Assembly: GCF_000010665.1 (NCBI RefSeq)
Contig: NC_012796.1
Location: 4,121,501-4,185,500, forward strand
Reading direction: 5' to 3'
DNA from: Solidesulfovibrio magneticus RS-1
Lineage (GTDB): Bacteria > Desulfobacterota > Desulfovibrionia > Desulfovibrionales > Desulfovibrionaceae
Length of the DNA: 64,000 nucleotides
Shown: piece by piece, positions 3,954-63,962 of the stretch
Layout of the letters: the number at the start of each line of letters is the position of its first letter
Numbering within the stretch: the first letter of the stretch is position 1
The notes under the pieces: model-generated
What the model saw: the letters and a program-made list of their open reading frames with translations, nothing else
What the model was told of the DNA's origin: nothing
The model's database searches: none
Position numbers and translations under genes: made by a program

Positions 3954-6125
3954 ATGGAACTAGTAGATCTCCAGGGCCAGATTGAACGTGTAACGTACAC
4001 CAACGAAGAGAATGGTTATACTATTGCCAAAGTGAAGGTCTATGGACGACGTGACCTTGTAACTGTTTGTGGTAACATCCTTTGCCCAACCCCTGGCGAG
4101 ATCATAAAAATGAAGGGGGAGTGGGCGAACCACCCAAAGTTCGGCGAGCAGTTCAAACTCGCCTACTACAAAACGACTACCCCCGCCTCTGTCCACGGAA
4201 TCGAAAAATACCTTGGGTCGGGTCTGATCAAGGGCATCGGCCCAGTCATGGCCAGGCGCATCGTTAAGTTGTTCGGGGAGGCCACGCTGGACGTCATTGA
4301 GGCGGATATCCAGAAGCTTGTTGAGGTGCCGGGCATCGGCTCCAAACGGGTCGGCATGATCGGTCAGGCGTGGGAAGAGCAGAAAGAAATTCGCTCCGTC
4401 ATGCTGTTTCTTCAGACCCATGGGGTCAGCTCCGGATACGCTACGAAAATCTACAAGCAGTATAAAAACGAATCCATTGCCGTGGTTCAGGAGAATCCTT
4501 ACCGGCTGGCCCACGATATTTTCGGCATAGGCTTCGTCACTGCAGACAAAATCGCGCAGAAGCTTGGCTTCGATAAAAACTCGCCGCTCCGGGCCGAGGC
4601 CGGCATCCTCTACGTCCTTCACCAATTGTCCGACGAGGGACACGTCTTTTACCCCCGGGAACCATTAATCGAGAAAGCCAACGAGATCCTGGAGGTTGAG
4701 ACGGCCGTCCTTGCTGATGCGATTGCCAGGTTGGCCTCGGACAAGAAGGTCGTCTGCGAGACCTTGAATGCCGACAGTGGTCCCATCGACGCCGTTTATC
4801 TCGCTAAATACCATCTTTCGGAGAACCAGGTCGCCGCTCGCCTGAAGGCCCTCATGGTAGCCCCAAAGGGTGTCCGCACCATTGATGCCCCAAAGGCCGT
4901 GGAATGGGTTCAGGAAAAGCTGTCGATGGCACTGGCGAAGAAGCAAGTCGAAGCGGTCAAGGCCGCAGCCACGAGCAAGGTCCTGGTCATTACCGGAGGG
5001 CCGGGGACGGGCAAAACGACAATTATCCGTGCCATCCTGAAAATCTTCTCCGCGATCACCAAGCACATCCTACTGGCAGCACCGACAGGCCGTGCGGCGA
5101 AGCGCATGTCCGAAGCCACCGGCCATGAAGCCAAGACCCTGCACCGGTTAATGGAATATTCCATTCAAAAATGCGGGTTCCAAAAGAACGAGGACCACCC
5201 CCTCGACTGCGAGCTGATTGTTGTGGATGAGGCGTCCATGATCGATCTCATCCTGATGCACCACCTGCTCAAGGCCATACCGAAGCCGGCCACACTGATT
5301 TTGGTGGGTGACGTTGACCAGTTGCCCTCGGTTGGAGCCGGCAACGTGCTCAAGGACGTGATCGCCTCTGGAACCATTCCTGTCGTGGAACTGAACGAGA
5401 TCTTCCGGCAGGCCCAAAAATCCTCCATTATCGTCAATGCCCACAAGATCAACAGGGGTGTCATGCCCGACCTCCGGCCGAAAATGGAGGGCGACGATTT
5501 TTACTTTGTCGAGGAGGACGAACCCGAACGAGCGCTGCAGCGAATAATCCAGCTGGTCAAGGAACGGATTCCGATAAAGTTTGGTCTGGACCCGATCGAC
5601 GACATCCAGGTATTAACTCCCATGAACCGTGGCCTTGTCGGGACGTCAAACCTGAATAGCGCACTTCAGGAATCCCTTAATCCCCGGGGGGAGGAAATCG
5701 CTCGTGGAGGACGGACGTTCCGGGTGGGCGACAAGGTCATGCAAATAAAAAATGATTACGACCGTGAAGTATTTAATGGTGACATCGGGCGAATCGTAAA
5801 AATTGATTCAGAAGAACAAGAGGTAATTGTCGTCGTTGATGGGCGAGACGTGAAATATGAGTACACAGACCTTGACGAACTAGTTCTTGCCTATGGCGTG
5901 TCGATTCACAAATCGCAGGGATCTGAGTATCCAGCAATTGTTATCCCGATAATGATGCAACACTATATAATGCTACAAAGAAATTTGACATATACTGGAA
6001 TTACTCGAGGAAGGAAACTTGTTGTCCTCGTTGGCCAAAAGAAAGCACTTGGCATAGCCGTCAGGAACAATAAGACGCTATTCAGAAACACTCATCTGAA
6101 CAAAAGAATAGCACTGGCGAAATAG
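3954..6125 (+). CDS. recD2: RecD2-like ATP-dependent DNA helicase
   Basis: 723 residues, the usual size for RecD2, a 5'-3' superfamily 1B DNA helicase acting outside RecBCD. An N-terminal OB-like segment is followed by helix-hairpin-helix motifs (about residues 87-150: SGLIKGIGPVMARRIV and LVEVPGIGSKRV). Walker A GGPGTGKTT lies near residue 347, Walker B VVDEASM near 421, and the C-terminal motifs AYGVSIHKSQGSEYP and YTGITRGRK near 645-690. All expected motifs are present. The last ~380 bases are markedly more AT-rich, with different codon use, than the GC-rich rest of the gene, suggesting a recombinant 3' end. No ribosome-binding site stands out. The GIY-YIG gene starts 10 bases downstream, so the two are probably co-transcribed. 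Confidence 0.93.
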   Translation: MELVDLQGQIERVTYTNEENGYTIAKVKVYGRRDLVTVCGNILCPTPGEIIKMKGEWANHPKFGEQFKLAYYKTTTPASVHGIEKYLGSGLIKGIGPVMARRIVKLFGEATLDVIEADIQKLVEVPGIGSKRVGMIGQAWEEQKEIRSVMLFLQTHGVSSGYATKIYKQYKNESIAVVQENPYRLAHDIFGIGFVTADKIAQKLGFDKNSPLRAEAGILYVLHQLSDEGHVFYPREPLIEKANEILEVETAVLADAIARLASDKKVVCETLNADSGPIDAVYLAKYHLSENQVAARLKALMVAPKGVRTIDAPKAVEWVQEKLSMALAKKQVEAVKAAATSKVLVITGGPGTGKTTIIRAILKIFSAITKHILLAAPTGRAAKRMSEATGHEAKTLHRLMEYSIQKCGFQKNEDHPLDCELIVVDEASMIDLILMHHLLKAIPKPATLILVGDVDQLPSVGAGNVLKDVIASGTIPVVELNEIFRQAQKSSIIVNAHKINRGVMPDLRPKMEGDDFYFVEEDEPERALQRIIQLVKERIPIKFGLDPIDDIQVLTPMNRGLVGTSNLNSALQESLNPRGEEIARGGRTFRVGDKVMQIKNDYDREVFNGDIGRIVKIDSEEQEVIVVVDGRDVKYEYTDLDELVLAYGVSIHKSQGSEYPAIVIPIMMQHYIMLQRNLTYTGITRGRKLVVLVGQKKALGIAVRNNKTLFRNTHLNKRIALAK

Positions 6126-17640: not shown

Positions 17641-18042
17641 TTATTGGTGATGTTTACTTTGTGACAAAAGTTCATCAATGCATTTCAGGAGTTGAGCATG
17701 GTCAATTGGTTTCTGCACTACTCTGTCAACGCCCGCCCTAAATATCTTTTCTAAATTTTGTGCGCGATGGTCAACGGCAGTGATTATAATAATTGGCGGG
17801 TAATCGCTGCTCGTACTGTTGAAGATAAACCGCATTCTCTTTGCAGTTTCAGCGCCATCTATCCCTGGCATAACAAGATCCATTATTATCAAGTCGAATA
17901 CTTTTTTATTATAATTCTCCAGGGCTTCGTCGCCGTCCTTTGCGGGATGAACCGCATACCCTTGCTTGCTGAGGAAGCGACAAAGTGCAACCCTGTTAAT
18001 CACGTCGTCTTCGACAAGAAGAATGGTTTGATTTTTCTCCAC
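17641..18042 (-). CDS. Single-domain response regulator (receiver only)
   Basis: 133 residues using GTG at 18042 with AGGA upstream; an in-frame TTG nine codons earlier is less likely. It has all receiver landmarks: the acidic pair in LLVEDD, the phospho-acceptor Asp in LIIMDLVMPGIDG, the Thr in IIITA and the Lys in VQKP. There is no output domain, so it probably works through protein contact or in a phosphorelay, as CheY-type proteins do. It sits directly downstream of the hemerythrin chemoreceptor gene on the same strand (52 bases), suggesting co-expression. Confidence 0.88.
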   Translation of the reverse strand: MEKNQTILLVEDDVINRVALCRFLSKQGYAVHPAKDGDEALENYNKKVFDLIIMDLVMPGIDGAETAKRMRFIFNSTSSDYPPIIIITAVDHRAQNLEKIFRAGVDRVVQKPIDHAQLLKCIDELLSQSKHHQ

Positions 18043-37820: not shown

Positions 37821-38804
37821 ATGGTTATGTCTACATTTGGAAAGCTTGAAAAAGTTGATCTTCGGTCTGGCTGGCTAAATGAAGCTGGTGATTTTACGCC
37901 CTGGCTTGCTCAGGAAGAAAATTTATCATTATTGGGCGACTCTATAAACTTGCAACTTGAATTGGAAGCTGAAGAGAAAAATGTTGGTCCATTCCGTGCG
38001 GATATCCTTTGTAAAGACATTGCAACAAATGAATGGGTTCTGGTTGAAAATCAACTAGAAAAAACTGATCACACCCATCTCGGTCAGCTTCTAACATATG
38101 CGGCTGGTCTTGATGCAGCGACAATTATCTGGGTTGCTGCTAGCTTTACAGATGAGCATCGTGCCGCACTTGATTGGTTAAATCAAATAACAGATGATAA
38201 ATTCAAATTCTTTGGACTGGAGATAGAGCTTTGGAAAATCAATGACTCTTTGCCTGCTCCAAAATTCAATATCATATCAATGCCAAACGATTGGCTTAAG
38301 TCAGTGACAAAAGCAAAAACAGTTGTTTCGTCAGAGTTGACATCGACCCAATCTTTTTATGTAGAATTTTGGTCTGGGTTATTTAGCCAGATGAAACATC
38401 ACTGCAAAATTTTAAAGCCTACTAAACCATTGCCTCAAAACTGGATGAACATATCTATAGGCCGAAGTTACGCCCGCCTGACTGCTGCAGTAAGTCTCAA
38501 AGAAGGGTGGATTGGAGTTACACTTTGCCTTACTGGTGATATTTCTAGGCAATTATATAGCATGCTAGAAGACCAAAAGGATCAAATTGAGCAGGAATAT
38601 GGTCACAGCTTGTGGTGGCTTGGAACTCCCAAAAAAGTAGAAAGCTACATTAGCTTTCGGTTGAACAATGTTGGCTTGCAAGATCGGGAGCGATGGGCAA
38701 GTTATTTTCTTTGGTATGTTGAAAACTTGGAGCTATTTTACAAGGTGCTTGGCAAAAGAGTGTTGAATGTAGACGTAAAGAATTTTCCCAACGACAACGC
38801 TTAA
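37821..38804 (+). CDS. DUF4268 protein with PD-(D/E)XK-like nuclease core
   Basis: 327 residues (the start could also be ATG 37827). The N-terminal half carries a PD-(D/E)XK-type pattern: GPFRADILCKD, then WVLVENQLEKTDHTHLGQLLTYAAG, where the Asp, Glu and following residues match the usual metal-binding arrangement. The C-terminal half (from about residue 180) resembles DUF4268, with FYVEFWSGL, WMNISIGRSYARL and WWLGTPKKVESYI. Members often lie beside restriction systems and are suspected nucleases. Here it precedes an HNH endonuclease gene by about 35 bases on the same strand, and no methyltransferase is seen. Confidence 0.78.
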   Translation: MVMSTFGKLEKVDLRSGWLNEAGDFTPWLAQEENLSLLGDSINLQLELEAEEKNVGPFRADILCKDIATNEWVLVENQLEKTDHTHLGQLLTYAAGLDAATIIWVAASFTDEHRAALDWLNQITDDKFKFFGLEIELWKINDSLPAPKFNIISMPNDWLKSVTKAKTVVSSELTSTQSFYVEFWSGLFSQMKHHCKILKPTKPLPQNWMNISIGRSYARLTAAVSLKEGWIGVTLCLTGDISRQLYSMLEDQKDQIEQEYGHSLWWLGTPKKVESYISFRLNNVGLQDRERWASYFLWYVENLELFYKVLGKRVLNVDVKNFPNDNA

Positions 38805-55776: not shown

Positions 55777-56034
55777 TTGAATTATTACGATATTTTGGGT
55801 TTAGATAAAAAGGCCACACAGGCAGAAATTAAAAAAGCATATTATTCTCTTGCGTTAAAGTTTCATCCGGATGTTAACCCGAACGGGCGGATCCTTTTTG
55901 AAAAAATAGCAAAAGCTCATAAGACTCTTTCAGATCCATCGCTTCGAGCGAAGTATGATTCACAAGGACGTTTGGAATTGGTAGCTGATGCGGATTCCTT
56001 TTTGTTTGACTACTTCTTGACTCTGTTTAAATAG
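55777..56034 (+). CDS. DnaJ (J-domain) protein
   Basis: 85 residues from TTG 55777, preceded by GAGGAG. It is a single J domain: NYYDILGLDKKATQAEIKKAYYSLALKFHPDVN with the HPD motif, then the last helices and SDPSLRAKYD. J domains stimulate the ATPase of DnaK-type chaperones. There is no Gly/Phe or zinc region, so it is a J-domain-only protein with a short hydrophobic tail (SFLFDYFLTLF). The next gene starts 25 bases downstream and the operon continues with coupled genes, so it probably works with those proteins. Confidence 0.9.
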   Translation: MNYYDILGLDKKATQAEIKKAYYSLALKFHPDVNPNGRILFEKIAKAHKTLSDPSLRAKYDSQGRLELVADADSFLFDYFLTLFK

Positions 56035-56059
56035 CATTTTGTATACAAGGGGGGTTGCG

Positions 56060-56521
56060 ATGGCCGAGTTTGATAGATTTGTTGAAGAGCAATATCGCGC
56101 TGCTGGGGAAACCGTTCAGTTGTTGAAGGATATTAAAAATCCTTCTAGACTCAATAGCCTTACAAAAACATTGAGAAAACAATGTCTTGATGATCATCAA
56201 GTGCTTGAAATTGGCGATGTTGCCGTTGCAATTCATGATCAAATTCAGTTTTTAGTACCTTCACCTTTTGATATGTGGATAAAAAAACAATATTTACCTA
56301 CATTAGATGAAGTTAAGCCTTTCGTGAAGGTAAAAAAAGAAGGTGGCGAAGTTATCCGCAAGTTGTTTTCGATTGATGGAGAGAAATGTTTTTATGCGAT
56401 TGCAATTGTGTATTGTCTGGAGATGCATGATAAGAATTTTGTAGTTGAGGTAGACTATCAAGACCAGTCAGATCGTGATGAAAATATTTCAGAAGAGGTA
56501 GAACAAGATGAAGTCTATTGA
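56060..56521 (+). CDS. Hypothetical protein of the DnaJ operon
   Basis: 153 residues from ATG 56060, set by AAGGGGGG; an in-frame ATG at 56039 lacks a site. Starts MAEFDRFVEEQYRAAGETVQ; a central part VGDVAVAIHDQIQFLV-like (IGDVAVAIHDQIQF) and an acidic tail (DENISEEVEQDE) follow. Not recognised, no membrane segment. Its 3' end overlaps the start of the next gene by 14 bases, showing translational coupling. Confidence 0.65.
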   Translation: MAEFDRFVEEQYRAAGETVQLLKDIKNPSRLNSLTKTLRKQCLDDHQVLEIGDVAVAIHDQIQFLVPSPFDMWIKKQYLPTLDEVKPFVKVKKEGGEVIRKLFSIDGEKCFYAIAIVYCLEMHDKNFVVEVDYQDQSDRDENISEEVEQDEVY

Positions 56522-57281
56522 TTTGCCGAAGCTCATAGATGATCCGGTTGGATTTATTACAGAGGTTTGCAACGAATCCCCACTGGCCGCTGAATCTGCA
56601 TTGAGTGTTTACGTCGACGAAAAAGGTGACGTAGCTGCTTCGTCAGTTATAGAGGAGATGCACCCTTTGTCTCTCGCGAGAATTCTTGAAGTGCACGATT
56701 ATACTAAGCCAACCTTGATTTATAGTTTTTTGTCATGCGATAAAGCCGTAGATATTTTTAATCAACTTCCACTCCTTTGGCATAATGTCTTGCCGACCTC
56801 TGGTCAAGAATATGATGAAGAGATTTTTTCACAAAACATTATGTTGATACAAGAAAAGGCGACAAACACGCTAATGTCTATTCTTCTTTCGATGGACAAA
56901 ATTGAAGATAGGCAACTTTTTTTGGAGAAGATAGGTAGTTCCAGCGGTAGTTTTGATTATCTTCTTTTGCCATTTATAGGAGACTTTTTAGGATCTGTTT
57001 ACGGAAAATATTTAACCTCGGATTTTGATTCTATATACATAAACAATACTTATCAGGAGGATTCTCTGCCCAGCATCCCATATGAAGGGACTCCAGAACA
57101 CTTATTTTCTTTAATTGCTCATTCAAATTTAGAGATCGCTCGACGCTTACACAAAGAGTTGTTTTCTGAATCATCGCTAGTCTACAAAATGCATTCAATG
57201 TATAGGCAGGCAGTTTCACGCTCTTTAGATAATTCACTCTCAACAGGTGAGGCGGAAGATGACCTTTTTGAAGACCTCTAG
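56508..57281 (+). CDS. Hypothetical protein of the DnaJ operon
   Basis: 257 residues from ATG 56508. Predominantly helical, moderately hydrophobic in places (FDYLLLPFIGDFLGSVYGKYL) but without a clear membrane span. The acidic C-terminus (EAEDDLFEDL) resembles that of the preceding protein. Family not recognised. It overlaps both neighbours (14 bases upstream, 23 downstream), so the three proteins are probably made together and may form a complex (inference). Confidence 0.65.
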   Translation: MKSIDLPKLIDDPVGFITEVCNESPLAAESALSVYVDEKGDVAASSVIEEMHPLSLARILEVHDYTKPTLIYSFLSCDKAVDIFNQLPLLWHNVLPTSGQEYDEEIFSQNIMLIQEKATNTLMSILLSMDKIEDRQLFLEKIGSSSGSFDYLLLPFIGDFLGSVYGKYLTSDFDSIYINNTYQEDSLPSIPYEGTPEHLFSLIAHSNLEIARRLHKELFSESSLVYKMHSMYRQAVSRSLDNSLSTGEAEDDLFEDL

Positions 57282-58485
57282 CCAACCGAAGGTTGCGAAT
57301 TCAACTCCATTGTTGGATTTATTCAATGAATTAAAAAATAAAAAAAATTTGGACTTGCAAGAACGGGTTGCAAAGGAACTCTCTAAAATTGCCAAGTCGG
57401 TTGCTTTGAAATATTTTAATGCAGTTGAAGCGCCGTGCTTGTTGGAGGCTGCTTATATCACTATGGGGGTGGTCAATTTTTATTTGTATACGCAAATGGA
57501 GAGTAGTTTTTTGAAAAATGAGGATTTAAAAAAAAATCTGGAAATCTTAAATAAAGGCGTAGCTACTTCTGTCGATTGTACCCCTGGCAATCCTTCCAGT
57601 TTTTCTGAATTTGTAAATGATATTGGTGCAGATCCAGGTGTTCTTAGGCAATACTTCAAACAGGGTATAGTTAGATTGCGTAATTATATGCTTGTTTGTC
57701 ATGCTGATGTGGTTAAACCAAATTTAAAAAATTATTTAGTTGATAATCAACTTGTGCCTGGCAGGCCATGGCTTGGTTTCATCAATCTGGCAGAAAAGTA
57801 TAGCAAAAGAAAAAAAGAGAATATCGAATATTTTCAATACTTAAACAAGTTGGCTCGTAAGTACTTTAAAAGCAATGGTGAAGATTCACTCTTTTTTAAG
57901 TATGATTTGTCTATACAAGTCCAGGATTTAACCGACTTGGGTATATATTTGGTTTTTTCTTTTGTTACTCAGAAGTCAAATTTCTATGCTTCTGAATGTG
58001 GCCAATTCCATCAGTTCTTGCCAATGTCAAGAGCTGATGTTCTTAAGTCCTATGGAGTTTATAAGAAAAAAGGTCTGGATCTCGACATGGTGCGCAGTGT
58101 ATTGCGCAAGTTCGCAGACGAATTAGATGTCAAGCATGTGGATTATCTTCTAGAGTGTTTTAAGAATTCATCTCTGCTACAGATCAAAGAATCAATTGTC
58201 AAGATCAGTCCTTCTGATATTAGCATTCTTGATTTTAAAGAGAATTTATCTAAAGAGGAATTGGCATTGCTTCGATCGCAACCCGAGAGTGCTATTGGGT
58301 TTGATTGTGTGGCATGTTTGGAATGTGGAAAGATATTTTCAGAAATAACAAACTCACACCTTAGAAAGCATGAACTTACTAGGGAAACTTATTTAGAGAA
58401 GTACAAGTGTGGATCGAGAAAAATACTTTTTGCTGAAAAAAAAAGAGCATTGTCAAAGTCTAGATTTCATAAGAATTGTAGGTAA
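57259..58485 (+). CDS. Large protein with C-terminal MucR/Ros-type zinc finger
   Basis: 408 residues from ATG 57259, with AGGCGGAAG upstream. About 340 residues are unrecognised and helical (LLDLFNELKNKKNLDLQER, ADPGVLRQYFKQGIVRLRNY). The last ~60 contain CLECGKIFSEITNSHLRKHE followed by LTRETYLEKY and a basic tail. The Cys/His spacing (C-x2-C-x10-H-x3-H) and the LTRE-Y-x-KY/F continuation are the same as in the MucR-type regulator at 14235. A DNA-binding finger at the end of a large unknown protein, in an operon with a J-domain protein, is unusual. It could recruit the operon proteins to DNA or regulate the operon (inference). Confidence 0.7.
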   Translation: MTFLKTSSQPKVANSTPLLDLFNELKNKKNLDLQERVAKELSKIAKSVALKYFNAVEAPCLLEAAYITMGVVNFYLYTQMESSFLKNEDLKKNLEILNKGVATSVDCTPGNPSSFSEFVNDIGADPGVLRQYFKQGIVRLRNYMLVCHADVVKPNLKNYLVDNQLVPGRPWLGFINLAEKYSKRKKENIEYFQYLNKLARKYFKSNGEDSLFFKYDLSIQVQDLTDLGIYLVFSFVTQKSNFYASECGQFHQFLPMSRADVLKSYGVYKKKGLDLDMVRSVLRKFADELDVKHVDYLLECFKNSSLLQIKESIVKISPSDISILDFKENLSKEELALLRSQPESAIGFDCVACLECGKIFSEITNSHLRKHELTRETYLEKYKCGSRKILFAEKKRALSKSRFHKNCR

Positions 58486-58780: not shown

Positions 58781-59383
58781 GTGTTTGGAGATAAAGATGT
58801 CCCTCTTTTTCCTGATGAGATCGATGATTTTCGAAGTTATCTTTTGAATTCTCCAGGCGCTATGAGATTGGAAGAAGTCGAAGGGTTTTTTGCAGCTATA
58901 ATATGTTCTCCGGAAGTGGAGAATCCAGTAACTATTTTTGCTCCAGTTCTTGGGTTTCAATCTGGCGAAAGTGTAGAAGATTTTAAAAAGTATTTACCTT
59001 ATGCGGTTCGACATTTAAGATTCAATCGGTTGTGTATCGGCGACTGTAGGTATAGCCCGATGGTTTTTTCTCATGAAGAATATTATAATAATAGCCAGCT
59101 ATATGGTTACGACTGGGCCTTGGGATTTATTGAGGGCATACGTTTACATAAAGATGCGTGGCTCCCTTTTTGGGAAAGTCATAGGTTTAATAAATTTCAG
59201 AACCTGCTATATCGTCTTGCTGCTCCACTTGACCAGTATCCTCCTGTGGTGTTAAAGTCAATGACTTTGAATGTAAGAAAAAAATGGTTTTCTGAAGTGA
59301 AGCAAACTATTCCAATTGTATTTCGCCTTTTTGCTGATGTACGTACTCAGAATGTCGAAGAATACAAAAGAAAATCTTGGTGA
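58781..59383 (+). CDS. YecA/UPF0149 family protein
   Basis: 200 residues from GTG 58781 with GAGGAAAA upstream. It has the UPF0149 pattern: FRSYLLNSPGAMRLEEVEGFFAAIICSPEV, a central acidic/helical part and YGYDWALGFIEGIRLHKDAWLPFWES. The C-terminal SEC-C motif found in many YecA proteins is absent. Function unknown. It lies 295 bases after the DnaJ operon and 210 before the RecQ fusion gene on the same strand, so it could belong to either. The preceding gap has only a weak dyad at 58484-58503. Confidence 0.8.
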   Translation: MFGDKDVPLFPDEIDDFRSYLLNSPGAMRLEEVEGFFAAIICSPEVENPVTIFAPVLGFQSGESVEDFKKYLPYAVRHLRFNRLCIGDCRYSPMVFSHEEYYNNSQLYGYDWALGFIEGIRLHKDAWLPFWESHRFNKFQNLLYRLAAPLDQYPPVVLKSMTLNVRKKWFSEVKQTIPIVFRLFADVRTQNVEEYKRKSW

Positions 59384-59592: not shown

Positions 59593-62500
59593 ATGACTAG
59601 TCCTGTTTTCACAATATCGACTATGTCCTCTATGCCAATGTTTCTCCACGATGACTTGCATTGGAATGGCGTGTTTTGTCCTGCTACACGCTACTGTAGC
59701 GATAACAACTATGAAGATTTAATAAGGATGTCTGGAAGCCACAAGTGGGCAATTATTGACAAATGTGGACGAAAGTATGAAATCAATGATAAACACCAAA
59801 AGATAATATCTATTGCGAAAGGCATTTTAGAACGAGGCAATTGGACGCTGCCCTCATGGAATTTAGAGAAAAAAATTTCCGCTTTTTTTCATAAGAAAAT
59901 GGGTTGGACTATAAAATATGACAAAAATGAACCTGGAAGATTGAAGCTAATAGCAAACGCAGGCACTGCTAGTAGAGACATAAGAAGCGCTTTGGTTTCA
60001 GCTAGTTTTCCAATTGAATTATCTGACCGAGAAATTAAAACTAAATCTAAACGATTGGTTGAGTATGTCGACAGCCCGGCAGAAGCTTCATTTTATTTGA
60101 AAGTTTTACAACCTGTTCTTGGATATCCTCTTCTTGATTATCTTCAATTTCAATTGCCAATGGAAATGCTGAATCAAGGCGATGATTTTTCTGGCCAACG
60201 AGTTGACTTTGTATTGTTTACAGGCCGAGGGTTGCGTCTGGTGATTGAGATCGATGGAATACAACATCAAGATGAATCTCAATCAATTCTTGACAATAAA
60301 AGAGACTTGGCGCTCGAAAAAGCTGGATGGAATGTCTGGCGAGTCAAAACTCACGAGCTTTCCGAGATCGAGAGACTAAAGTCAACATTAAAGCGGCATC
60401 TTGTCAAAGACAAGAATACTTACCACTGGGGTGTTGATGAAAAATTAGAAAAGCCTCGCTCGAAAGATGTCATGAGTTGTGTTTGGGGTGCAACTGTAAG
60501 TGCAAGGATTCAGTTTTTACTTTTAGAGGCTCTTGGGCTGGGATTGTTGCCTTGGGAAGAACCGTGGAATGTCTGTGTGATTGAAAAAGAAACATCGGTT
60601 GCTACTATTGCAATCGACGATTTTAGAAATTGGTTCAGCAGGATAAGATTTTTATTTGGTGAAACGCCAGTCTCGCAAATAAAAATTCACCAAAAAAATA
60701 GAATCAAAGCGTGTGATTACGTTATCGATGTTTCTGTTGCCGACCCTTATTCTAAAATTGTTCAAAGCAATGTCAACATCGGGTGGTCACGCGCATCAAA
60801 TTACCCTGCAAACAACCAATCAAGGGTGTTTTTAGGTCGTGTTTTAGCCCCTACAGAGCCTAGTGATGGATTAATAAAGTCATTTGTCCAAGATTTTTTT
60901 AGAATTAAAAGGCCAAGAACAGAGCAATGTAAAATAATTGCTCGCATCTTGTTAGGCCATGATGTCATTGGGTTGCTCCCAACAGGTGGAGGCAAAAGTT
61001 TAACATATCAACTTTGCGGCCTTTTGATGGGCGGGTTGACAATTTACGTTTCACCCCTGAAGTCTTTGCTGCAAGATCAGAGAGAGCGCTTGTGTGATTT
61101 TGGAATTGATCTGGTCGCTGAAATTTCGAGTTCTTTGAATTATATTCAAAAAGAAAAAGCGAGTTTACTGTTAAAGCTTGGGTGTGTGCGTTTTCTACTC
61201 ATAGCTCCTGAACGATTTTTAAAAGAAGACTTCAGAAATGACCTAAGCATTTACCGAACAATGTACGGGGAAGTCAACCAGATAGTTGTTGACGAATGTC
61301 ACTGTGTAAGTGAATGGGGGCATGAATTTCGACCTGCATATCTATGTTTAAGTCGAATTGCAAAAGAACGAACTACGAGATTCGGCATATCATCACCCCT
61401 GGTTGCATTAACCGGAACAGCCTCTCCAGTGGTATTGTCTGACATACAGCGAGAGTTAGGCATTTTGGGGGCCGATGCCGTCATAAAACCTGTCAAAATG
61501 GACAGGCCTGAAATTGCTCTTGAATGCATTCAAGTTGCTCAAGACCATAAGACAGGGGTCTTGAAACGAATAATACATGAATGTGTGAGGAATAAAGATC
61601 ATGGCAACAGGGATGGTGTTTTGATTTTTTGCAGGTATATCACTAGTCGCGATGGCGTATTGGCAGTGTCTTCTGAACTATTGAGTATTTTGCTCGAAGA
61701 CGATGTGCGATTTTATTGTGGTGAAAGTCCTAGCTGGAAACATTTAGCGGCTTTTAAATTGAAGAAAAAAGCAGCAGCATTGAAAGACAAAGAAATAGTC
61801 GCCGCGATACCCTCTTGGGCGAGTGAAAATTCGTGCGAAACACCCAGTTCAAATTATGACTGGGATAAAGTGAAAATAAAAAGCCAACGCGATTTCATAA
61901 GCGGAAAAAAAAATAATTACCGATTTTTAGTAGCGACCAAAGCCTTTGGAATGGGAATTGACAAACCTTCTATCCGAAAAGTTATTCATTATACAACGCC
62001 AGAATCACCAGAGGCGTATTATCAAGAAGTAGGAAGAGCCGGACGAGACGGAAGACAGTCAGAGGCAATCCTCTTGTTCTCTGACGAAGACGGAGAAATT
62101 GCCAATAAAATTCTTGACCCAACCACGAGCTTAAAAGACGCAAAAAATTTATATGATAATTACAAAAAAAACAACCCATTTGGAGGCGGTGATTTTGTAA
62201 AAACTTTTTATTTTCACAACAATTCTTTTGCTGGGATAGAGGACGATATTGATTGCACAGAGTCTGTTCTCAGTGAAGTAAGAAGAATGCTCGAAAGCAA
62301 TAGGCCAGTAATATTGACTTATGACACCAGTATTGATTCCAACTCGCTAAGCGAAGCTAAACAATACTGCTCAAGACAGGAACACTCGATTGAATACTCG
62401 CTGATCCGATTGATTAATCTTGGGATTGTATGCGACTACACAAAAGACTACAAATGTAACACTTTCAAAATCATTGTCAATTCACAATGGAATGAAATCA

Positions 62501-63282
62501 GAAACGACTTTTTTTTACTGTCGGAATACATGCAATCTCAATGCATTGCATATCGAAAAAAATACAAATCTTACTCCAGCGAAGAGGAAAAAAATAGATT
62601 TGTCTCTTGTGATAACGTCCATGGAATTGAAAGACAAAGCATAATTTATTTAATCAACTTTATATATGATCATATTGAAAAGAAAAGAAGACAAGCATCG
62701 CGTCAAATGCTCGAATGCGCCAGAGAAGGTGTTGACAATCCTAGAAGATTTCGCGATAAAATTATAGAATATCTACAAGCGTCCGCAAAATACGATAACA
62801 AATTGCTTGAACTTGTAAGAAACAATGATATATTTTCATGGGCGAATCTTTTAGAAACAACAGACGGAGATTTTGACGAACTCAAGGAGTTAAGTGGTGC
62901 ATGTCTCAGATTTCTTGAAGATTATTCTGATCATCCCGGAGTGTTGACACTATCCTCATTGACAAGAATGTCGCCATCGGATAATGAGTTAAGCCGAAGC
63001 AAAGAAGAATTTGCTGCAGCCTTGCATTATTTATCTAACCTCATAGGTACAGATCAAGCCAAAAAAAATGGTTACATGGCCTTGAGTTTTTCTAAGAAAT
63101 ATAATGATTCAACTTATGGCACATTTGAAAAAATATTTTCTCAATGGCTAATCAAGAACTCTTTTGAAGAAGAGGCCGTCCAATATTTTTTTCATTTGGA
63201 CACTGTGCGCAAGTTGTTTATGGCTCACGTTTTAAAACGCGTTAACAACCTTATTCCAAATTTGGACTGGCCAGACCAATGA
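59593..63282 (+). CDS. Nuclease-RecQ helicase fusion
   Basis: 1229 residues. The first ~200 are unrecognised. Around 203-260 lies a PD-(D/E)XK/DUF559-type nuclease part: VDFVLFTGRGLRLVIEIDG (Asp and Glu of the active site), HQDESQSILDNKRDLALEKA and WNVWRVKTHEL. A RecQ-type superfamily 2 helicase follows: LLPTGGGKSLTYQL (Walker A, near 458), VVDECHCVSEWGHEFRP (near 565), ALTGTASPVVLSDI, AFGMGIDKPSIRKVIHY and YYQEVGRAGRDGR (near 800). The last ~400 residues are unrecognised and helical; the usual RecQ zinc and HRDC domains were not seen. The stop overlaps the start of the coiled-coil gene by four bases. The combination suggests DNA unwinding coupled to cleavage, as in several phage-defence systems (inference). 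Confidence 0.88.
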   Translation: MTSPVFTISTMSSMPMFLHDDLHWNGVFCPATRYCSDNNYEDLIRMSGSHKWAIIDKCGRKYEINDKHQKIISIAKGILERGNWTLPSWNLEKKISAFFHKKMGWTIKYDKNEPGRLKLIANAGTASRDIRSALVSASFPIELSDREIKTKSKRLVEYVDSPAEASFYLKVLQPVLGYPLLDYLQFQLPMEMLNQGDDFSGQRVDFVLFTGRGLRLVIEIDGIQHQDESQSILDNKRDLALEKAGWNVWRVKTHELSEIERLKSTLKRHLVKDKNTYHWGVDEKLEKPRSKDVMSCVWGATVSARIQFLLLEALGLGLLPWEEPWNVCVIEKETSVATIAIDDFRNWFSRIRFLFGETPVSQIKIHQKNRIKACDYVIDVSVADPYSKIVQSNVNIGWSRASNYPANNQSRVFLGRVLAPTEPSDGLIKSFVQDFFRIKRPRTEQCKIIARILLGHDVIGLLPTGGGKSLTYQLCGLLMGGLTIYVSPLKSLLQDQRERLCDFGIDLVAEISSSLNYIQKEKASLLLKLGCVRFLLIAPERFLKEDFRNDLSIYRTMYGEVNQIVVDECHCVSEWGHEFRPAYLCLSRIAKERTTRFGISSPLVALTGTASPVVLSDIQRELGILGADAVIKPVKMDRPEIALECIQVAQDHKTGVLKRIIHECVRNKDHGNRDGVLIFCRYITSRDGVLAVSSELLSILLEDDVRFYCGESPSWKHLAAFKLKKKAAALKDKEIVAAIPSWASENSCETPSSNYDWDKVKIKSQRDFISGKKNNYRFLVATKAFGMGIDKPSIRKVIHYTTPESPEAYYQEVGRAGRDGRQSEAILLFSDEDGEIANKILDPTTSLKDAKNLYDNYKKNNPFGGGDFVKTFYFHNNSFAGIEDDIDCTESVLSEVRRMLESNRPVILTYDTSIDSNSLSEAKQYCSRQEHSIEYSLIRLINLGIVCDYTKDYKCNTFKIIVNSQWNEIRNDFFLLSEYMQSQCIAYRKKYKSYSSEEEKNRFVSCDNVHGIERQSIIYLINFIYDHIEKKRRQASRQMLECAREGVDNPRRFRDKIIEYLQASAKYDNKLLELVRNNDIFSWANLLETTDGDFDELKELSGACLRFLEDYSDHPGVLTLSSLTRMSPSDNELSRSKEEFAAALHYLSNLIGTDQAKKNGYMALSFSKKYNDSTYGTFEKIFSQWLIKNSFEEEAVQYFFHLDTVRKLFMAHVLKRVNNLIPNLDWPDQ

Positions 63283-63962
63283 ACACAAATACAAGTACAA
63301 TGTCGGCCTTGGTCGACGAATTCGAGCCTCTGTTTGCGCAATTAGAACTGTTAAAAAATAAAATTTCTCAATACGCCAATGCTGGCGACCGGCTAAATTA
63401 TGCTTCTGAGTCGATAGAAGCTCTGTCGACCGAATTTCGCAACGCTAAAATCGGAACAGATATCATTCTAAACGGAATTAACGACAACAAAGAACGACTT
63501 TGCACGGCAATAGATAGCATTAATGCTTTTAATAACACTATGGAAAACGCAATCAGAAGCATCGAAAATACGGACATTTCTAATGCCCTAAAGAAGTTCC
63601 AAGACTTATTAAGCTTTGAAATGGAAAAATTTTTATATCAAAACAAACTACTAGTAGAAGAAAACAAAAAGCAACTTGAAAATCTCCAAAAACTGGTTTT
63701 GGGCTTGTTACAACTAAAAGACGATATGCTGGATTCACTGTCAAATGCCAGCGATTGTATTTTTCAGAAAATAGATTCAATCGATCAGTTGGTAAGAAGC
63801 AATATTGAAACTACTGCGTCTTTGTCAAATCGTCAAAGCGAGATCGACATACGCATGACTACCTTCGTGTCTTCAATTGACAAGCAGCTTAATTTGATAA
63901 CAGAAAATATCGCCAGCCAGGGGAAACGCCTTGATTCTATAAAAAAAATAAAATGGTTTTGA
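63279..63962 (+). CDS. Coiled-coil protein coupled to the nuclease-RecQ gene
   Basis: 227 residues from ATG 63279, which overlaps the stop of the helicase gene (ATGA). Almost wholly helical with heptad patterns (LVDEFEPLFAQLELLKNKIS, FRNAKIGTDIILNGINDNKE, LVEENKKQLENLQKLVLGLL, IDKQLNLITENIASQGKRLD). No Cys and no hydrophobic membrane span were seen, and no family recognised. The tight coupling implies equimolar production with the helicase and probable complex formation. It could be an oligomeric scaffold or sensor. Confidence 0.7.
   Translation: MNTNTSTMSALVDEFEPLFAQLELLKNKISQYANAGDRLNYASESIEALSTEFRNAKIGTDIILNGINDNKERLCTAIDSINAFNNTMENAIRSIENTDISNALKKFQDLLSFEMEKFLYQNKLLVEENKKQLENLQKLVLGLLQLKDDMLDSLSNASDCIFQKIDSIDQLVRSNIETTASLSNRQSEIDIRMTTFVSSIDKQLNLITENIASQGKRLDSIKKIKWF

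Follow-up and report, generated by a model that had tools for sequence, protein, structure and literature searches.

Gabija and Zorya pair a nuclease with a helicase that act on invading DNA, Zorya also having membrane parts, and a RecQ-like helicase, a HAD-phosphoribosyltransferase or both occur with DprA in the small operons of RqlHI, PsyrTA and ShosTA, which we refer to as the DprA group. Toxin-antitoxin and phage-defence roles of this group have been published (PMC4670107, PMC9122126; also PMC5512222). PMC4670107 reports that RqlH is genotoxic unless restrained by RqlI and traces the toxicity to its phosphoribosyltransferase part; the word 'coiled' does not occur in it. Here we describe a gene pair in a 64,000-nucleotide stretch of Solidesulfovibrio magneticus RS-1 (contig NC_012796.1, positions 4,121,501 to 4,185,500; 'the window'), made up of a nuclease-RecQ fusion gene (59593..63282, forward strand, 1,229 residues, ATG start) and a gene for a 227-residue coiled-coil protein (63279..63962, forward strand). 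The first-pass annotation of the window had reported the two genes and their four-base overlap, both of which we recovered, and had offered them as a candidate undescribed defence system. Based on genomic context and conservation, the pair is probably such a system, directed against phages or plasmids.

The comparison with described systems gave likenesses but no name. As in the DprA group, a RecQ-like helicase sits in a small operon, but the window protein carries a DUF559 nuclease and has a coiled-coil partner. Pfam matched no phosphoribosyltransferase domain on it, no DprA gene lies between 1.1 kb upstream and 13.5 kb downstream of the pair (the upstream neighbours are not DprA), and the PsyrT model fits the fusion best on the helicase core (residues 434-661). 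PsyrTA was rejected as a name because the phosphoribosyltransferase domain and an adjacent DprA are missing at the window. Helicase core and fold are shared with housekeeping RecQ, whereas the nuclease, the extra C-terminus and the partner are additions and no RQC or HRDC domain was matched in the Pfam scan; a TIGR01389 score of 260.6 bits against a cut-off of 640.2, together with a separate clade, led us to reject that name too. The helicase and nuclease families of Gabija and Zorya presumably differ from those of the pair, and no Gabija- or Zorya-type model was among the best 25 of its 31 PADLOC matches. No description of the pair was found among the titles and abstracts listed, a search that most subscription papers and preprints fall outside, and RecQ does not appear in the main texts of PMC13092281, PMC10853773 and PMC9519451. 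The absence of an exact match to a named system agrees with what had been claimed for the pair, subject to a caveat on DpdF models given below.

Beyond the window, we found 42 further helicase-fusion loci in many phyla, and a coiled-coil-type gene lies downstream of the helicase fusion at all 39 that are readable (37 of 37 without two near-duplicates, L016 of L010 and L008 of L006); the count leaves out L180, L217 and L225, which lie at contig ends. Under the same treatment, none of 38 ordinary RecQ loci had a coiled-coil-type gene: some same-strand open reading frame (ORF) was in range at 18 of them, in no case of this type. The family thus described consists of a RecQ-clade helicase, usually fused to a DUF559-type nuclease, with a conserved C-terminus and a constant coiled-coil-type partner. 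Conservation of the adjacency had been suggested as a check on the pair, and partnerless relatives in housekeeping contexts as grounds for dropping it; none was seen among the 39 readable loci, and the neighbourhoods scanned are rich in matches to defence models.

The loci were collected in two sets. The first comprises 22 helicase fusions, found in plasmid records or by scanning genome and viral contigs with a helicase fragment. Selection was on length and similarity of the helicase, except that L019, truncated by its contig, was taken on similarity. A same-strand coiled-coil-type ORF follows in 21, mostly overlapping the helicase gene; at L007, where there is a short unannotated overlapping ORF, the partner lies 102 bases downstream. 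The remaining locus, L015 of Thermus, is no exception to the pairing: a transposase ORF comes directly behind the helicase, and an ORF with coiled coil and tail lies beyond it. The second set is a census with a profile of the family alignment, yielding 20 loci with the partner present at 17 of 17 readable ones; at L214, the partner persists beside a broken helicase frame.

Partner length ranges from 139 to 391 residues, and at 36 of the 39 readable relatives the partner ends in a transmembrane tail. The tail anchor is absent from the partners of L009, L019 and L020, as it is from the window copy, which has a highest 19-residue hydropathy of 0.72 and a short basic-aromatic tail. A hidden Markov model built from nine partners scored the window partner at 15.5 bits, compared to 13.9 for the best of 1,000 shuffles and 19.3 for a reversed decoy; it is by its downstream coiled-coil gene that the window pair belongs to the family. 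Weak Pfam matches of the window partner to BLOC1, CdaS and similar families were below cut-off and were set aside as coiled-coil noise.

Conservation was assessed on 39 proteins: the window protein, 20 of the first set (duplicates dropped) and 18 of the second (leaving out the broken L214 and L225). The Walker A lysine (K468) and D567/E568 are present in all 39, while the D205...E219 nuclease motif is kept in 35 of the 38 that have an N-terminus (L019 is cut), being lost in L009, L218 and L224; L015 has E in place of D221. Because the nuclease motif is lost in 3 of 38 proteins while the helicase residues are kept in 39 of 39, helicase and coiled coil form the constant core and the nuclease is a usual, but not invariable, part. 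In a FastTree phylogeny of the helicase core (34 family and 34 ordinary sequences, with reference RqlH and DpdF proteins outside the set, as were five family members missed by the motif pattern), the family forms one clade with support of 1.0, in which the window sequence branches early.

The N-termini are more varied. Cysteine pairs in L017, L018, L020, L025 and L046 may, on our reading, be zinc-ribbon-like; the extension of L020 is a kinase (5.4e-10 in a PDB sequence search), and L006 begins with HAD and a ShosT-like stretch. Separately, the helicases of L154 and L218 carry N-terminal extensions with a glycine motif, which we take to resemble that of class I S-adenosylmethionine (SAM)-dependent methyltransferases; the PDB sequence search gave no match for the L154 extension and nothing convincing for that of L218.

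As a module, the pair is mobile and widespread but patchily distributed, being rare in most groups sampled and spread over many phyla; several copies are plasmid-borne. In its own phylum, the census recovered one genome of 395, namely the window's own, and a BLAST-type search of 99 genomes at 1e-60 likewise returned that genome only. Besides the seeds, there were 3 members among 395 in the order of Flavobacterium, 2 among 398 in the phylum of Clostridium (two seeds; five further matches of 405-421 bits were not counted as members), 15 among 291 in the order of Runella and 0 among 388 in the phylum of the casp15 metagenome-assembled genome. A scan of genome contigs with the window fusion protein alone found no relative, and the alignment scan with the helicase fragment is a sample, covering the best 80 of at least 591 matches. 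Using tblastn against plasmids, the C-terminus matched 1 record and the N-terminus 6, and the best 20 of 22 matches to phage records were to the helicase core only.

Enrichment near defence genes, a further check that had been suggested, was evaluated for 14 of the 17 census loci that are readable, on neighbours no more than ~7 kb away. These 127 proteins of at least 130 residues match 174 PADLOC models at 1e-10, the best 25 of which include type I, IIG and IV restriction, PglX, ZacC, SspE and HEC-06, compared to 4 models for 117 proteins flanking 11 ordinary RecQ loci. Two of these 11, L026 and L074, belong to the 38 controls, and the remaining nine are further loci of the helicase-fragment scan with RecQ ORFs of 631-705 residues. 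The contrast is strong but gives no rate, because it counts redundant models and not proteins, in sets that are not taxon-matched; the control loci are mostly from flavobacteria with similar surroundings. For 19 loci of the first set, the 93 neighbouring proteins match 131 PADLOC models.

Taken with the constant pairing (39 of 39 against 0 of 38), the single clade and the conserved motifs, these defence-rich neighbours incline us, without great assurance, to read the pair as a two-gene, horizontally moving immune module. The PADLOC matches in the window's own island, the type I restriction genes next to two of three E. coli copies opened and to a truncated Klebsiella copy, links to ShosTA/PsyrTA-type systems, the tail anchors and the patchy distribution are further reasons for this reading.

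The links to the DprA group come from two lineages. In E. coli and Klebsiella, the order is DprA, then a HAD/ShosT-like/nuclease/RecQ fusion, then the coiled coil, where the Klebsiella DprA reaches 219.2 bits with the ShosA model and the fusion, over residues 254-349, reaches 28.9 bits with that for ShosT. In Deinococcus, the helicase and coiled-coil genes are flanked on one side by a helicase with a PsyrT-matching end and on the other by a HAD-DprA fusion. These arrangements tie the module to ShosTA, PsyrTA and RqlHI; a DprA gene was found at only 3 of 22 first-set loci, two of them near-duplicates. They also favor a toxin-antitoxin-like abortive system, in which the tail-anchored coiled-coil protein would be a membrane effector or antitoxin and the nuclease-helicase the sensor or toxin. 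The published toxicity of RqlH and its restraint by RqlI (PMC4670107) point the same way, as does the transmembrane tail of 36 of 39 partners. However, the phosphoribosyltransferase part to which that source assigns the toxicity was not found in the window protein, the window partner has no transmembrane segment and partner length is variable, so that we regard this alternative as rather unlikely. Two side observations concern these forms: a Klebsiella plasmid (L228, 7056-9688) carries DprA and the HAD-containing front part only, near type I restriction genes, and the Deinococcus plasmid operon (L009, 761-11122) has a RecQ-clade helicase without the nuclease motif and a 391-residue coiled coil.

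Some caveats attach to the immune-module reading, beginning with enterobacterial copies whose neighbours are replication-type genes or insertion sequences and not defence genes. The enterobacterial form is present in 7 of 5,426 complete E. coli genomes (3 chromosomal and 4 plasmid copies), and of the three copies opened, two adjoin type I restriction genes, while the third has genes for a DnaB-like helicase and a DNA ligase around it. Another E. coli plasmid is similar, with DnaB-like helicase, primase (or hypothetical) and DNA ligase neighbors, and one Klebsiella plasmid copy sits among insertion sequence elements. Finally, the PADLOC model PDLC02868, labeled 'DpdF', spans residues 469-1471 of the Klebsiella relative at 371.6 bits, covering nuclease, helicase and C-terminus, and such proteins are thus already in a database.

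The two E. coli plasmid copies beside replication-type genes bear on a role in accessory DNA repair, recombination or replication, by which the pair would maintain plasmids and islands instead of providing immunity. RecQ helicases are repair enzymes, and that several copies are on plasmids fits as well. Such upkeep is nonetheless improbable given the distinct helicase clade, the patchy and rare distribution, the variable N-terminal domains and neighborhoods rich in restriction and defence genes, compared to the few defence models beside ordinary RecQ.

PDLC02868 bears on another alternative, that the fusion is DpdF, a component of the Dpd (7-deazapurine DNA modification) restriction system. 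A RecQ-like helicase core is common to DpdF and the window fusion, the best PADLOC matches of the fusion (among the best 25 of 31) are to several DpdF models, and one first-set neighbor matches DpdE (E value of 6.9e-138). Yet the best stretches of the window fusion's DpdF matches lie in the helicase region, and no Dpd model was among the 20 matched by 39 other window ORFs or was matched by the pair's seven other neighbors scanned (genes farther downstream lie outside the PADLOC scan). The curated NCBIfam DpdF model (NF041063) gave 138.8 bits against a cut-off of 550, on which DpdF was rejected as a name. Identity with DpdF is accordingly very improbable, and the DpdF label of PDLC02868 is probably a loose one for such proteins.

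Returning to an immune module, the mechanism that we infer, from DNA as target through its cutting, complex formation and membrane position to immunity, would run as follows. The helicase would load on DNA that is foreign or replicates abnormally, at gaps, forks or ends, and translocate, feeding the DNA to the nuclease, which would cut it. The helical-repeat C-terminus would bind the coiled-coil partner, which would multimerize the complex and, in most relatives, anchor it by a single C-terminal helix to the inner membrane, where phage DNA enters. Sensing or a brake would come from the additional N-terminal parts, namely a zinc ribbon, a kinase, a possible SAM domain, or a HAD-phosphoribosyltransferase together with DprA. 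In the window, the complex would either stay soluble or attach peripherally by means of the short basic-aromatic tail. A more specific form is a widespread, undescribed family of RecQ nuclease-helicases with swappable N-terminal sensors, kept at the inner membrane by a tail-anchored coiled-coil partner so as to meet foreign DNA on entry, and to which ShosTA/PsyrTA-type systems are add-ons in some lineages; we advance it tentatively, as somewhat short of an even chance. If the immune reading is correct, this would be a new defence family, rare in most sampled groups yet spread over many phyla, and the DprA-linked toxin-antitoxin systems would gain a nuclease-helicase relative. It raises the question of whether the constant, usually tail-anchored partner places a DNA-degrading machine at the membrane, for which a ready comparison is offered by members that occur with the anchor and members that, like that of the window, lack it.

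The architecture of the window fusion bears out the earlier description of one protein with a DUF559-type nuclease and a RecQ-type core. An AlphaFold model of residues 1-1200 was built from 15 sequences, with a predicted local distance difference test score (pLDDT) of 72.6 and a predicted template modeling score (pTM) of 0.75; residues 1-54 are below a pLDDT of 50. Foldseek matched the full model to RecQ catalytic cores in the PDB (E value of 4e-21), with RecQ-type helicases making up the best 50 of 1,111 fold matches. An N-terminal helical region (residues 55-197; 59755..60183, forward strand, as are all parts of the fusion) carries an RG motif (residues 81-82) that is nearly invariant across the family alignment. 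The PD-(D/E)XK nuclease core follows (residues 198-266; 60184..60390), matching Pfam DUF559 (33.0 bits, above the gathering cut-off of 20.6, which places it in that family) and DUF2726 above cut-off, with D205, E219 and D221 all present; we take these to be the catalytic residues. A linker domain specific to the family (residues 270-429; 60400..60879) aligns family-wide and had no Pfam match. The DEAD/Helicase_C core (residues ~430-845; 60880..62127) contains K468 and the DECH motif at 567-570, and the broad RecQ model TIGR00614 scored 229.2 bits, above its cut-off of 219.8.

The C-terminal part (residues 846-1229; 62128..63282) also aligns across the family. Modeled separately (pLDDT of 78.4, pTM of 0.58), it matched no PDB fold at an E value of 0.001 or lower. 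It may comprise a winged-helix-like element of two strands and, after it, helices resembling a repeat solenoid, fold names that are our own reading because the PDB gave no match at that threshold.

The surroundings of the pair agree with the accessory DNA and neighboring modules noted before. The pair lies in a low-GC region, close to its border: GC content is ~0.37-0.41 across the two genes and 0.63-0.71 from a cysE-like gene ~3.6 kb downstream (downstream gene names, including cysE, are our reading of translations). Of the 13 other members of the genus, the four whose flanks matched over the greatest length were compared on the cysE side. Neither the pair nor any window ORF from 36 kb onward has a match there; partial matches (35-46% identity) to the ORFs at 17644, 21509, 26852 and 31904 may reflect shared domains. 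Outside the 55.7-63.9 kb block, the 39 other window ORFs of at least 110 residues match 20 PADLOC models at a threshold of 1e-8, including PD-Lambda-2_B (5e-134), PDC-M41B (3e-113), PDC-M30B (1.5e-110) and, at 37821-38801, the candidate defence family PDC-S11 (400.6 bits, 1e-120). On these matches, we read the region as a defence-type island. The five genes directly upstream of the pair gave a single PADLOC match, PDC-S12 at 2e-8, which is the YecA/UPF0149-type gene at 58781-59383; a YecA-family gene also lies inside the type I restriction cluster that adjoins the module on one E. coli chromosome.

Farther upstream, at 55777-58485, a mini-operon resembles the cold-adaptation genes AtcJ-AtcA-AtcB (a DnaJ domain and two weak matches) and is followed by a 412-residue protein with a ROS/MucR end. 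The Atc matches are far below curated cut-offs, and this is possibly another undescribed module. Counts of promoter-like and terminator-like sites (17 and 6, compared to shuffle means of 13.2 and 3.5) were not used as evidence. The window also encodes a RecD-like helicase at 3954-6122 (278 bits to a type IV RecD model), and another RecQ-like helicase is present in the genome at C2:1855709.

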